From the NCBI GenBank assembly GCA_026692905.1, contig JAPLNL010000017.1, forward strand, positions 1-44,759: a DNA stretch of 44,759 nt, written 5' to 3'. A model generated the notes under the pieces. The model was not told the DNA's origin. It searched no databases and worked only from the letters and a program-made list of their open reading frames with translations. The position numbers and the translations under genes were made by a program. This DNA comes from Planctomycetota bacterium (GTDB lineage: Bacteria > Planctomycetota > Planctomycetia > Pirellulales > Pirellulaceae). Positions 294-4,854 of this stretch are shown one piece after another. Numbering within the stretch: position 1 is the first letter of the stretch; each line of letters starts with the position of its first letter.

Positions 294-706
294 GTGTTCC
301 TCAATCAAGATACAAAGGGTCGAATACCTAAAATTCCATGGCCTGCACTGTGCTCGGACTGTGCAGAAACTCGGGAAAGTGTGGCTCGATTCAACCTTTG
401 TCGTCGGACCCCCGTTTGGGTATCCCTGATAGCATTGAGAGTAAGAACCGTGCTTTCCCAGCTCTTCTATCCCAAGATACTAACAAAAGCCCTGGATTTC
501 AGAAGGGGCAAAATGGAAAGAATGACTTTTGGCCGAGAGCCACGGTTTGCAAAAAGGACTAAAGTTAGGCCTGAAAAACACTTGATTTGCCACCCATAGG
601 TTGAGCATAATTTAGAAAGTCAATCTAGCTCAGTTGGCTCAAAGGGCTTTTGTTGGCCTTAGCGGAACGGCAAGGTTGCTTCCAGTCCAATAGCGAAGTG
701 CGGAAA
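294..706. other. Intergenic region, no gene recognised
   Basis: About 410 bases between the divergent minus-strand gene at the left edge and the small plus-strand gene at 707. Short open frames exist here, but they have no recognisable motif and no convincing ribosome binding site. The region should hold the promoters of both flanking units. I could not pick a confident promoter by eye. Confidence 0.4.
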
Positions 707-925
707 ATGCAAAACCACGAAGTGGATGATTCGTTCAAGGCCTTCTCCAGTGATCTCGTTGAAATTGGTTGCGTCTCCCCCAAAAATTTGAGATACGATG
801 ATGGGAAAAAAAGACTTCCATCGGTTGATCCAGCAGAAGGCACGGTGATTTGGATTGCGAAAGATAGCGAGTCGAAGCCGGAACAGTATCTGGAAGAATG
901 CAATACGCATCAAAACGGAGAATGA
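707..925 (+). CDS. Small acidic protein ending in Gly-Glu, possible Pup/UBact-like modifier
   Basis: A 72-codon frame from ATG 707 to TGA 923-925, placed directly before the Pup-ligase-family gene. TTG codons at 650 and 653 are alternative starts; the one at 653 has AAAGGG six bases upstream and would give a 90-residue protein. The product begins MQNHEVDDSF, is rich in Asp, Glu and Lys, has no signal peptide, and ends YLEECNTHQNGE. Pup and UBact are small, mostly disordered proteins of about 50-70 residues that are ligated through a C-terminal Glu preceded by Gly. Here size, terminal Gly-Glu, a helix-prone acidic segment just before it and the neighbouring ligase-family gene fit that pattern. 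The rest of the sequence does not clearly align with Pup, and TVIWIA in the middle is more hydrophobic than expected. It could instead be an unrelated small gene, or an upstream piece of the ligase frame separated by a frameshift. Confidence 0.45.
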   Translation: MQNHEVDDSFKAFSSDLVEIGCVSPKNLRYDDGKKRLPSVDPAEGTVIWIAKDSESKPEQYLEECNTHQNGE

Positions 926-2606
926 CCGCCCAATCCTTTCTCGATTGATGGGACTTGAAACTGAGTACGCGATCCGATGCCGACAGAACGCGACCATTTC
1001 GGGAGCAGTTCTCGATTTCGATCGGCTTGCTACCAGCCTCGGATACAAGACTCCGATCGCACCTAGTTTTCGAAACCCTTACAGACTCTTCATTGCGAAC
1101 GGCGGCTGCATATCGCTTGAAACGGGTGCGTCTCCAAGCTTGAAGAATGCGATGCTGGAGTCGGCGACACCGGAGTGCAACAGCCCTCGCGAGTTGCTGT
1201 GTTATCAGATGGCCATGGAAAAGCTCTTGTCCGAAGTGGTCAGCAGCACCTTTGTCGAACAAGATGCGCATCTTCTGAAGGGAAGCGCCGACGCACATGG
1301 ACACACTTACGGCCAACATGAGTCGTATGAAATGAGCATCGCCAAAGGACCACATTTGATTGGCTGGCGGCTTGGATTGTTGTTGATGTTACCTGCCGTC
1401 ATGTCTTACCGCGTCCTAGCGGCAATCTGGTTTCTTGTTATTTGGTTTCTAAGCCAAGCGTTTGCCTTGCTATTCAAATCCGCTCGCTTCTTTCACAAAC
1501 GCGTTCCCGAACTAGACAACGCAGCGAGCTCATCCTTCAAACCGAAGAGTAGCCGACTGAGTCTGATGCACCCTGGCTGGGTTCGGCTATGTGCATACGG
1601 ATTACGGGTCTTGCATTTGCCGATCGCGCTGCTTTTGTGGTGCAATATCGTGTGCTTTGCCCTGAGATCACAGCGCAAGCATCTTTCCGCATTCTTCGCT
1701 TCGCGGTGCATCATCGATGGCGCTGGTTATTTGGATAAAGAGAATCGATTTTGGGTCAGCGCTCGGGCGTCGACCATCAACTGTGGCGTCGGCTTCGGTA
1801 GCTACGGTCGTTCCAGTCCATTGTTTCGATGCGATTCCTGGCTTCGAGGTTTGTGCGTTGGACCTTTTTGGACATTAGGAAACTACTTCAGTCTCTTTTC
1901 GGATCGGCAACGCGTTGAATTGGCTATCGGCGACTCGGGAATGTGCGAACAGTCACAGTACGTACGTATCGGGTCGACAGCCCTAGTTTTGGACTTGGTA
2001 GAGAAGATGACGCCGAAGGTGCCGCAACTAAAAAAACCAATCGATGCAATCGGACGTTTTGCACGCGACTGGATGTTGCTGGCCAGCGCCGCGGATCGAT
2101 CTGGACGCCAGTGGACTTCGATGGATATCCAACATGCCTATGCGGCCGCGGTACGTCAAATGTTGCAAACCAAGTCAAACGTGCCTATCGAAGCATGGAA
2201 GATTCTCGATCAATGGCAATCGACCCTAAACCAACTGCAACCAACCGACGACGAAGCCAACTTACCTCGGACAATGCTCGGGCGCATCGATTGGTTAAGC
2301 AAACTCTGGTTGTTACATCAAACCAACGCCGGTGCAACGTGGCAAGCCCGAAAAAAGATCGATCTACGATACCATGAGTTGTCCGGAAGCGGTTACCATC
2401 GCCGCCTGAATGAAACCCTCGAGCTGGCACCCATTCTAGAGCCGTTCGACGTATCGCGAGCCAAGCGAACGCCACCCGTGGGATCACCAGCTACCCAACG
2501 TAGCTATTTGATTCGAGAATTTTCTGAGCCGGAATGCAATCTTCACGTAGACTGGACTCACGCGGAGTTTATCTTCGAGGGCAAAAAACGCAGAATCCTA
2601 TTTTGA
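855..2606 (+). CDS. Pup ligase / depupylase (PafA/Dop) family protein with hydrophobic insertion
   Basis: This family uses ATP to attach Pup to lysines (PafA) or to deamidate and remove it (Dop). Family hallmarks, numbered from TTG 855: MGLETEYAI at 32-40 (nucleotide/metal-binding Glu residues), NGGCISLETG at 82-91 followed by SATPEC at 103-108, KGSADAHGHTYGQHESY at 142-158, IDGAG at 287-291, and IGDSGMCEQSQYVRIGST at 358-375, with LVLDLVE at 378-383. Between the HESY motif and IDGAG lies an insertion of about 110 residues containing hydrophobic stretches at roughly 168-208 and 245-270, which suggests membrane association; canonical PafA and Dop are soluble. The residue aligned by eye with the catalytic Asp is Glu89. 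The start is uncertain: TTG 855 overlaps the small upstream gene, ATG 948 would begin exactly at MGLETEY and lose the conserved Arg before it, and no good ribosome binding site precedes either. No proteasome or ARC/Mpa ATPase gene is in the window. Confidence 0.85.
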   Translation: MRKIASRSRNSIWKNAIRIKTENDRPILSRLMGLETEYAIRCRQNATISGAVLDFDRLATSLGYKTPIAPSFRNPYRLFIANGGCISLETGASPSLKNAMLESATPECNSPRELLCYQMAMEKLLSEVVSSTFVEQDAHLLKGSADAHGHTYGQHESYEMSIAKGPHLIGWRLGLLLMLPAVMSYRVLAAIWFLVIWFLSQAFALLFKSARFFHKRVPELDNAASSSFKPKSSRLSLMHPGWVRLCAYGLRVLHLPIALLLWCNIVCFALRSQRKHLSAFFASRCIIDGAGYLDKENRFWVSARASTINCGVGFGSYGRSSPLFRCDSWLRGLCVGPFWTLGNYFSLFSDRQRVELAIGDSGMCEQSQYVRIGSTALVLDLVEKMTPKVPQLKKPIDAIGRFARDWMLLASAADRSGRQWTSMDIQHAYAAAVRQMLQTKSNVPIEAWKILDQWQSTLNQLQPTDDEANLPRTMLGRIDWLSKLWLLHQTNAGATWQARKKIDLRYHELSGSGYHRRLNETLELAPILEPFDVSRAKRTPPVGSPATQRSYLIREFSEPECNLHVDWTHAEFIFEGKKRRILF

Positions 2607-2782: not shown

Positions 2783-3433
2783 TGGCGGCGCGATCGCGAT
2801 GAGGATACTTCTTGGAGTTCGCCAATTATCATTGATTATGAAGGTCAACAACAAGTCATTGTGTGCGGTACCAATCGTGTTCGTGGGTACGCTTTGACAA
2901 TTGGCGAAGTCCAATGGGAATGCGGTGGCCTCTCGTCCAATATTGTCGCGACCCCAGTATTTGCCGACGATATCTTGTACGTCGGCAGCAGCTATGAAAA
3001 GAAGATGTTGATGGCGATTGATTTGAGAGGAGCGAAAGGAGACTTGACTGGGTCGGAGCGAGTCCTTTGGTCAAGAACACGCGGGACACCTTATGTCCCC
3101 TCACTGCTTCTCTACGACGACTCCCTCTATTTTCTGACCCATTATCAAAATGTACTCACGCGCGTGCATGGTCCGACGGGCAAGGATTCGCCGGGCGCAG
3201 TTCGGTTGGGTTCCTTGGGGAATATTTATGCTTCGCCCGTCGGCGCTAACGGTTTTGTCTATGTGACGGACTTGGCGGGAACCACCGAGGTCATAACGCA
3301 CGCAGACATTCCTCGAACCGTTGCCGTCAACCGCCTCAACGAACCGGTCAACGCCTCGCTGGCGATCGTCGGGGGTGAACTCTTCATTCGAGGCGAAAAG
3401 AATCTCTATTGCGTTTCGCACGACAGGAAGTGA
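2783..3433 (+). pseudogene. 5'-truncated PQQ-like beta-propeller protein
   Basis: The frame is open from 2780 to the stop at 3431-3433. From the repeat boundary it reads WRRDRDEDTSWSSPII, which matches the mid-protein motif of planctomycete PQQ/BamB-like propellers; the intact paralogue at 12034-13395 has RDEKSNWSSPF at the equivalent place, about residue 230 of 453. Only the C-terminal half survives: the signal peptide and first blades are missing, and the cut coincides with the edge of the palindromic repeat. Internal starts such as GTG 2861 could still give a 190-residue product (CGTNRVRGYAL onward), but without a leader it would not be exported. The stop is immediately followed by the ATG of rdgB, and the AGGAAG at the gene's end serves as the rdgB ribosome binding site, so transcription through the remnant may still matter. 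I infer loss of the 5' half by a repeat-associated deletion. Confidence 0.75.
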
Positions 3434-4108
3434 ATGGACTCTGCGACGAACGGTCGAAGTGTGTTAAACTGTTCGATTATGCAAGACCCAATTTCGATTC
3501 CAACAAGAATCAAAAAACTGTACCTAGGCACAAACAATCGCAAGAAGATTGTCGAACTCGTAAATTTACTCGAGCCACGCGGATTTGAAATCAAAGTACC
3601 GGCTGACTTTCCTGATATGTTTGATGTCGACGAAACCGGCAAGACGTTTCTTGAAAACGCAAGACTCAAAGCCATCTCTCAAGCTTGTCATCGAGGCTTG
3701 TGGGCGATCGGTGAGGATAGCGGCCTCTGCGTACCGGCCCTAGGCGGTCGGCCTGGAATTTATTCAGCAAGATTCTCGGGACCAGCAGCCAATGACCAAT
3801 CGAACAACGACTTACTCTTAAAAGAAATGGCATCGCTACCGTTTGACAAACGACAAGCATACTACGTGTCCACGATCGTTTTGGCTGATCCGGAAGGCAA
3901 AATTCATATCGAAACACAAGGGGAATGCTGGGGCCGAATTCTGTTAGAACAACGAGGTATCGGCGGCTTCGGATACGATCCATTGTTTGAGATCGCGGAA
4001 TATCATCAAACGTTTGCCGAGATGGGGCTTGCCGTCAAACGTGCCATCAGCCATCGCGCCCGGGCATTGCGAGCCTTTCTCCATCGTCTCGACGAAATGA
4101 ACGTTTGA
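3434..4108 (+). CDS. rdgB: XTP/dITP diphosphatase (RdgB/HAM1 family)
   Basis: Hydrolyses non-canonical purine nucleoside triphosphates (ITP, dITP, XTP) to monophosphate and pyrophosphate in the cytoplasm, keeping them out of DNA and RNA. Family signatures in order: the substrate loop LGTNNRKK near residues 31-38, ETGKTFLENARLKA, the catalytic/metal segment GEDSGLCVPALGGRPGIYSA, GGFGYDPLF, and the C-terminal SHRARAL. Length of 224 residues is slightly above the usual about 200 because of an N-terminal extension. ATG 3434 is preferred because AGGAAG lies just upstream; ATG 3479 (MQDPIS) is the alternative and would match the usual length better. The stop overlaps or abuts the start of the TauE/SafE gene, so the two are probably co-translated. 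Confidence 0.93.
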   Translation: MDSATNGRSVLNCSIMQDPISIPTRIKKLYLGTNNRKKIVELVNLLEPRGFEIKVPADFPDMFDVDETGKTFLENARLKAISQACHRGLWAIGEDSGLCVPALGGRPGIYSARFSGPAANDQSNNDLLLKEMASLPFDKRQAYYVSTIVLADPEGKIHIETQGECWGRILLEQRGIGGFGYDPLFEIAEYHQTFAEMGLAVKRAISHRARALRAFLHRLDEMNV

Positions 4109-4110
4109 GC

Positions 4111-4854
4111 ATGGCGCCAAACAGCTACTTCGATTGGCTCCTATTGGCCATCGCAGCGTTCGGCATCGGGATCACCAAGAGTGGCTTTTCGGGCGTCAGT
4201 ATGGTACATGTCTATCTCTTCGCAACGGTCTTCGGAGCAAAGAACTCGACCGGCATTGTCTTGCCAATGCTGATCGCAGGCGATGTTTTTGCGATGTTCG
4301 TCTATGGCAAACGTGCCAACTGGGGTTATGTGCGACGCATGATGCCGCCGACGTTGGTCGGAGTCGTCATGGGATGGCTCTTGATGTTCTGGCTCCCCGA
4401 GCAACACTACCGTCCATTGATCGGCACGATCATTCTCGGACTGACGCTGCTGCAGATCGTTCGTTTGTGGAAGGAGGATTGGCTGGCAGATGTTCCACAC
4501 GCCGCTTGGTTTGCGTGGAGCATGGGGATTTTAGTCGGACTCACAACAATGCTGGCCAACGCAGCAGGACCTATTTTTGGCTTGTACTTGCTAGCCATAG
4601 GGTTGCCCAAGCTAGAGTTTGTTGGGACGGCAGCTTGGTTTTTTCTGATGCTCAATGTGATCAAGATCCCCTTCAGCTGGAGCTTGGGTTTGATACGGCT
4701 GGACACTCTAACGCTGAACGCAATGCTCATTCCGTTGATTGCGTTGGGGCTCTGGATCGGAACCCTGGTGGTGCGACGAATCCCGCAGCGGCTCTTTGAC
4801 AGTATTATCTTAATCCTGACCGGCTTGGCTTCGATCCGCATGCTGTTTTGGTGA
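4111..4854 (+). CDS. TauE/SafE-family membrane permease
   Basis: A membrane protein of about 247 residues with roughly eight hydrophobic helices, in the family that includes sulfite, sulfoacetate and other small organic-anion exporters. The family's N-terminal pattern is visible in AFGIGITKSGFSGVSMV, and the second half repeats it in LVGLTTMLANAAGPIFGLYLLAI, where the conserved NAAGP segment is typical. The C-terminal WIGTLVVRRIPQRLFD matches the usual hairpin before the last helix. ATG 4111 lies three bases after the rdgB stop; TTG 4105 would overlap it. The coupling suggests one operon with rdgB, but the functional link is unknown. The substrate cannot be read from sequence. Confidence 0.88.
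   Translation: MAPNSYFDWLLLAIAAFGIGITKSGFSGVSMVHVYLFATVFGAKNSTGIVLPMLIAGDVFAMFVYGKRANWGYVRRMMPPTLVGVVMGWLLMFWLPEQHYRPLIGTIILGLTLLQIVRLWKEDWLADVPHAAWFAWSMGILVGLTTMLANAAGPIFGLYLLAIGLPKLEFVGTAAWFFLMLNVIKIPFSWSLGLIRLDTLTLNAMLIPLIALGLWIGTLVVRRIPQRLFDSIILILTGLASIRMLFW

Follow-up and report, generated by a model that had tools for sequence, protein, structure and literature searches.

A Gly-Glu-ending modifier and a PafA/Dop-family ligase with a predicted membrane insertion: a probable pupylation-like system in Pirellulaceae, with overlapping genes in one clade

Introduction

Most of what is known of pupylation concerns its role as a degradation signal. A related system of Gram-negative bacteria, UBact, was reportedly introduced by Lehmann et al. 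in 2017. The closest described relative of the locus considered here comes from planctomycetes and Plesiocystis, in which Iyer, Burroughs and Aravind (2008; PMC2588565) found a Pup gene next to that of a Pup ligase carrying a transmembrane insert. In their description the insertion follows core strand 4 and has four segments, no linkage to a proteasome is given, and PafA is placed in a glutamate-ligating superfamily; the family chemistry established for Pup and PafA is the ATP-dependent joining of a terminal Glu to lysine. The authors propose regulatory membrane-associated tagging for Rhodopirellula and Plesiocystis (PMC2588565). A single-copy planctomycete homologue serves as an outgroup in PMC7947786, and PMC2837639 discusses the 2008 result only, as far as the accessible parts of these two papers go. 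A limited literature search over partial texts found no other work on this planctomycete system.

The present locus lies in the window, i.e. the whole 44,759-nt stretch of contig JAPLNL010000017.1 that was analysed (contig 17 of a Pirellulaceae genome of 5.96 Mb, 96% complete, in which its PF03136 gene is the only one found). It shares with the system of 2008 (PMC2588565) a short GE-ending protein beside a PafA homologue, an insertion after strand 4 and the lack of proteasome linkage. It differs in that hydropathy gives two long hydrophobic stretches instead of four transmembrane segments, and in that no neighbour is common to 13 wide loci, whereas a linked membrane-protein gene was described in 2008. 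A long two-frame overlap, unlinked tags and Glu in place of the catalytic Asp are not mentioned in the main-text parts of that paper that we could consult. With the actinobacterial Pup-PafA-Dop-proteasome system the locus has in common a PF03136 enzyme and a small modifier that ends in G[E/Q] and falls in the same size range; unlike that system, the window's genome has neither a second PF03136 gene nor a detected proteasome gene, the ligase carries a hydrophobic insertion and Glu for the catalytic Asp, and the tag is unmatched to Pup. The Gram-negative host and the pairing of a small modifier with a PF03136 enzyme are shared with UBact, which has a GQ-type tail and proteasome genes; in contrast, the window has a GE tag, one PF03136 gene and no detected proteasome gene. 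The kind of system, a modifier with a membrane ligase, has thus been described since 2008.

Materials and Methods

PF03136 was searched in 241 Pirellulaceae genomes, and further sequence was then retrieved. The ligase start motif was located by pattern in 114 of the 117 loci examined (L092, L093 and L120 gave none). A frame was counted as adjacent if it had at least 40 residues, ended in GE or GQ and had its stop between 500 bases before and 60 bases after the ligase motif. Loci L031, L034 and L035, whose contigs are shared with L020, L010 and L027, and the wide loci L121-L135 were removed before the counts; L118 and L119 duplicate L032 and L033 and are kept inside the 114 ligase rows and outside the 112 distinct loci. 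The upstream DNA of L004 is too short, and the tag of L045 lies at a contig edge.

Modifier starts were assigned with preference for ATG, the search stopping at 95 codons. The 51 modifiers of the alignment were selected for a GE or GQ end. The profile applied to the 33 genomes without an adjacent frame was built from linked modifiers and contains none of these 33 loci. The ligase tree comprises 109 ligases, with L012 and L072 left out. The register of the catalytic acid was taken from the PafA alignment, and a Dop-loop was defined as 40-65 residues ahead of strand 2.

Results and Discussion

The modifier gene

The features of the locus are collected in Table 1.

Table 1. Features of the modifier-ligase locus (window coordinates).
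Feature	Position	Strand	Evidence
Pup-like modifier gene, 72 aa, ATG start, C-terminus ...YLEECNTHQNGE	707..925	+	homologues, profile A1
Gly-Glu codons, predicted conjugation end	917..922	+	G71, E72 invariant in alignment
PafA/Dop-family ligase with hydrophobic insertion, 583 aa, predicted TTG start	855..2606	+	PF03136, TTG conservation, PDB matches
GhExE motif (GLETE, residues 33-37)	951..965	+	G, E, E invariant in 44/44
Glu89 at the position of the PafA/Dop catalytic Asp	1119..1121	+	E in 43/44, D in 1/44
Hydrophobic insertion, residues 172-210 and 243-273, predicted membrane anchor	1368..1673	+	hydropathy
Dual-coding overlap, 71 nt: modifier tail (frame 0) and ligase N-terminal extension (frame +1)	855..925	+	third-position and frame identity

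The first-pass annotation, made from the window alone, had proposed a modifier gene at 650-925 with an acidic product of 72 (up to 92) residues ending in Gly-Glu. The stop-to-stop frame spans 629-925 (98 residues; 91 if read from TTG650). Only the shorter form stands: the conserved start is the ATG at 707-709, with MQNHE or MQNQE at the matching ATG of L010 and L020, and TTG650 was rejected as a start since it is not conserved among relatives. An ATG is found 50-95 codons ahead of the end in 68 of 72 non-redundant homologues. The product is indeed acidic (15 Asp and Glu vs 8 Lys and Arg in the 72-residue form) and the Gly-Glu terminus is confirmed, as the frame ends ...NTHQNGE before TGA and GE closes all 72 non-redundant homologues.

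In the alignment of 51 modifiers, every one of which ends in GE, one Asp is nearly invariant in addition to the terminal pair; the C-terminal part is conserved and most of the remainder is variable. With 72 residues the product falls within the 50-90 residues and G[EQ] end by which Pup is recognized. A scan of its own genome with profile A1, which includes this gene, returned the modifier with E 2.7e-13. The dN/dS comparison suggested by the first-pass annotation gave no clean signal: of six close pairs compared outside the overlap, five have ratios of 0.49-1.43 and the sixth has 0.12, and the tail alone is well conserved. These ratios count against a pupylation-like reading. The 51 modifiers found no Pup match in Pfam, NCBIfam or PDB sequences, where stray single matches only were obtained. 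The missing match is likewise counted against the pupylation-like reading; the negative result in Pfam and NCBIfam is weak because three UBact-like control tags were missed too. The tag is short and overlooked by the family libraries tried, and it is findable through alignment and its invariant GE.

The ligase

The ligase matches PF03136 with E 1.8e-66 and 225 bits (cut-off 25) over profile positions 1-440 of 441. A profile of 44 ligases matches Dop (E 3.5e-68) and PafA (E 2e-50) in the PDB, in several stretches across much of the domain. The NCBIfam PafA model TIGR03686 scores 134.5 bits against a cut-off of 551.3, which counts against a pupylation-like system; the Dop model TIGR03688 scores lower (111.7) and is also far under its cut-off. 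In the strand-4 motif the Glu is invariant and is followed by Asn in 33 and Ser in 11 of the 44 ligases (HES, residues 155-157, in the window).

The catalytic Asp (D64 of PafA, D94 of Dop) has Glu as its counterpart in 43 of the 44 ligases; this is still an acid, and the replacement is counted against the pupylation-like reading. Dop D94 is mentioned in PMC8599861. The spacing between GhExE and the acid is 54-72 residues (median 59; 98 of the 114 loci measured), compared with ~50 in PafA and ~88 in Dop, and is therefore too short for a full Dop-loop. Both hydrophobic stretches lie C-terminal to strand 4 and exceed 1.4 in 19-residue hydropathy. An AlphaFold2 model of the ligase built from 6 sequences has a mean pLDDT of 35, too low to show a fold, and this is counted against the pupylation-like reading as well.

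Across the phylum PF03136 occurs in 38 of 392 genomes, the window's genome included. In other planctomycete classes (L156-L184) many PF03136 matches break between profile positions ~360 and 368, which suggests an insertion at a different place.

The two-frame overlap

The modifier had been annotated as lying directly before a PafA/Dop-family gene, with its TGA (923-925) overlapping an ATG (922-924). The family assignment holds and the ATG is present, but it opens merely 8 codons and was rejected as the ligase start; ATG948 was rejected as well, not being ATG in many relatives. Most likely, to judge from its conservation, ligase translation begins within the modifier gene at TTG855, the first start after the stop that interrupts the ligase frame at 846-848. 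All 23 non-redundant loci that represent the clade have a TTG at the -71 offset, vs 4 of 42 loci of other genera, and it is the sole ATG/GTG/TTG start in L012, L019, L023, L025 and L029. It arises from a modifier codon for Ile or Val, without exception ATT or GTT, although these make up 35% of Ile and 31% of Val codons, respectively. The naive product puts the chance of this invariance at 1e-11, too small a value because the sequences are related.

At unchanged amino acids, the third positions in the overlap agree at 64.6% (22 loci; L012, with a broken ligase frame, was left out). The same measure averages 41.6% over 334 windows of the ligase core, with a maximum of 49.7%, and the corresponding 23 codons give 46.6% in 42 loci of other genera. 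The mean amino acid identity is 0.411 in the ligase frame, with stops in 0 of 23 loci, 0.397 in the modifier frame and 0.311 in the third frame, which is interrupted by stops in 16 of 23. The values for other genera are 0.212 for the ligase-type frame (stops in 9 of 42), 0.377 for the modifier frame and 0.237 for the third frame. Random synonymous recoding reaches at most 0.239 in the ligase frame and 0.225 in the third; this null is lenient because the real third frame exceeds its maximum, so that other genera and the third frame are the fairer references. Both frames of the overlap are, by these comparisons, constrained, and the modifier tail and the predicted ligase N-terminus lie on common DNA. 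The alternative raised by the first-pass annotation itself, a conserved fused frame that is the ligase's own N-terminus, is half true: the DNA of the tail does encode the ligase N-terminus, but in another frame, with both frames constrained.

A frameshift fusion of modifier and ligase was entertained because five loci of the clade have no ATG, GTG or TTG past the modifier stop. It is disfavoured, as the -71 TTG never changes within the clade and the junction stop may be TGA, TAG or TAA.

All 29 loci that have the overlap group together as one clade of the ligase tree, with support of 0.999 on one side and 1.0 on the other. The ligase start therefore seems to have been shifted into the modifier gene on a single occasion, by which the enzyme acquired a basic extension at its N-terminus (MRKIASRSRNSIWKNAIRIKTEND; 7 Lys/Arg and 2 Asp/Glu). 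Outside this clade a candidate ligase start lies within 15 nt of the modifier stop in 38 of 47 loci (hand count). The 71-nt out-of-frame overlap, with the ligase starting inside the modifier gene at a conserved TTG in the clade of 29 loci, is apparently new; among the titles and abstract openings covered by a limited literature search, no paper joined pupylation with overlapping genes.

Distribution and co-inheritance

Of the 114 ligase rows from Pirellulaceae, 79 have an adjacent frame ending in GE or GQ (77 when the 112 distinct loci are counted), and in all 79 the end is GE. Among the other frames of at least 40 residues in the same loci, 42 of 6714 have such an end (0.6% per frame). At 33 loci, one per genome, the adjacent frame is absent from 1500 bases upstream (435 in L072). 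In 31 of these 33 genomes the modifier profile finds a match elsewhere, on another contig or far away, the misses being G210 and G238; the weakest match has E 0.007 and four stand at 0.001 or worse. All 14 unlinked modifiers that were read out end in GE followed by a stop. The unlinked state comprises 32 loci in one clade of the ligase tree (support 0.995), which makes the unlinking look like a single event.

Over the 241 Pirellulaceae genomes the modifier is present in 111 of 120 with a ligase vs 1 of 121 without (tables compared by hand); G212 has a modifier without a ligase. The modifier profile has no match in nine ligase genomes (G079, G191, G205, G206, G210, G214, G219, G223 and G238), which counts against the pupylation-like reading; the PF03136 loci of G079 and G219 are solely of the other type described below. 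Two ligases of the window type are accompanied by two modifiers in G032, G193, G194 and G235, and in G235 one pair is linked and the other unlinked. Short frames upstream of planctomycete ligases had been put forward as the check on the first-pass annotation; within Pirellulaceae the frame is conserved, in position and GE terminus too, and is inherited together with the ligase, and the interpretation as a modifier is supported.

Two ligase-modifier pairs also occur in a genome that is 77% complete (G003:C104 and G003:C861; L009 and L113); the second resembles the pair of G120 (L115) and perhaps belongs to a mis-binned contig.

Proteasome genes and a second type of locus

The 20S beta model TIGR03690 had no match at E 0.001 in any of 27 genomes of the window's genus. 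PF00227 was absent from 10 of the 11 genus genomes searched, the window's among them, and the match in the remaining one (G016) was under the cut-off. Elsewhere in the family a PF00227 protein over the cut-off was found in 12 of 19 genomes searched, HslV and other kinds being counted together, and independence of a proteasome is therefore argued for the genus only. The Mpa model matched AAA proteins in 60 of 60 genomes, none above the cut-off.

A distinct type of locus, in which two PF03136 matches accompany a tag that ends in RRNxSGQ like that of UBact proper, occurs in five genomes of the family (L121 in G035, L122 in G121, L123 in G116, L124 in G119 and L126 in G219). In G035 and G121 its neighbours are a AAA protein resembling Mpa and a Prok-JAB match that stays below the Pfam cut-off. 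Three of the RRNxSGQ tags had no match in Pfam or NCBIfam. The label 'Pup/UBact-like' originally given to the window's modifier fits in the functional sense, but the UBact-like tags of the family are separate and the window's tag is not among them. A possible tag ending in RRCLSGE was seen at L127 (G079).

Surroundings of the pair

Just past the ligase, at 2710-2770, lies an inverted repeat of 25 nt with arms 92% complementary and an 11-nt loop. Its core, GAGGCTCCTGCCGAGCC, has 191 copies in the genome (107 + 84) and 0 when read backwards; it is a REP-like dispersed element. Farther downstream (2861-4854) follow a weak PQQ/BamB-like match, a Ham1/RdgB pyrophosphatase and a TauE/SafE exporter, genes with no evident link to the pair. 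The lack of any neighbour shared by all 13 wide ligase loci is another point against the pupylation-like reading.

Interpretation

Very probably, the two genes encode a membrane-anchored pupylation-like system that works without a proteasome at least in the window's genus. From the GE end, the lack of a second enzyme, the hydrophobic insertion and the absence of a detected proteasome we infer a membrane-associated regulatory tagging. The small modifier, probably disordered, would arrive with its Glu end already in place, so that no deamidase would be needed. The ligase, held by the hydrophobic insertion at the cytoplasmic face of the membrane, would use ATP to phosphorylate the side-chain carboxylate of the terminal Glu, and the activated tag would be joined to lysines of membrane or membrane-near proteins, where it may act in regulation or sorting. 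A start of ligase translation within the modifier gene, as predicted for the Pirellula clade, would tie the two together in expression and evolution.

It is possible, though improbable, that the enzyme is a carboxylate-amine ligase for peptides or small molecules, like the GCS2 relatives, which elongates or cyclises the small protein into a peptide product. PafA belongs to the glutamate-ligating superfamily (PMC2588565), the modifier is mostly variable with a conserved C-terminal part, as in a leader/core pair, and the usual catalytic Asp is replaced by Glu; however, the sole fixed element is the terminal GE, as in Pup, the ligase profile matches Dop and PafA across much of the enzyme, and no common neighbour gene was found at 13 wide ligase loci or 14 unlinked modifier loci. 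An enzyme that, like Dop, removes the tag or deamidates it, with the true ligase missing, would agree with the better PDB score of Dop (3.5e-68 vs 2e-50 for PafA), yet we hold it to be highly improbable: the window's genome has a single PF03136 gene without a full Dop-loop, deamidation is unnecessary for a tag that already ends in Glu, and in NCBIfam it is the PafA model that outscores the Dop model.

The short frame might also be a mere upstream leader peptide or coupling cistron for translation of the ligase, for which the frequent candidate starts near the modifier stop outside the overlap clade would speak. In the 32-locus clade, however, the frame lies far from the ligase, where a leader would be useless, yet only two genomes have lost it and its tail is of the same kind; the explanation is extremely improbable. 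As for the overlap, the third positions may be conserved by an RNA or regulatory element instead of by dual coding, and the unused third frame does rise above the recoding null (0.311 vs at most 0.225). Such an element is very improbable, since the ligase frame is free of stops in all 23 loci where the third is interrupted in 16, it is conserved like the modifier frame, and in five loci the TTG is the only start available.

The pupylation-like system might further represent a second, proteasome-free branch of bacterial protein tagging that acts at the membrane of planctomycetes and relies on Glu in the active site; in the Pirellula clade the ligase would have gained a new basic N-terminus overprinted on the tag tail, both evolving as one piece of DNA. 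To this wider proposal we give an even chance. The overlap offers a clear case of single origin in which the N-terminus of an enzyme is overprinted on the functional tail of its partner, and the invariant GE of the tag is a direct target for mass spectrometry. A membrane version with a single ligase, in a genus where no proteasome can be detected, would reveal the role of this chemistry apart from degradation.
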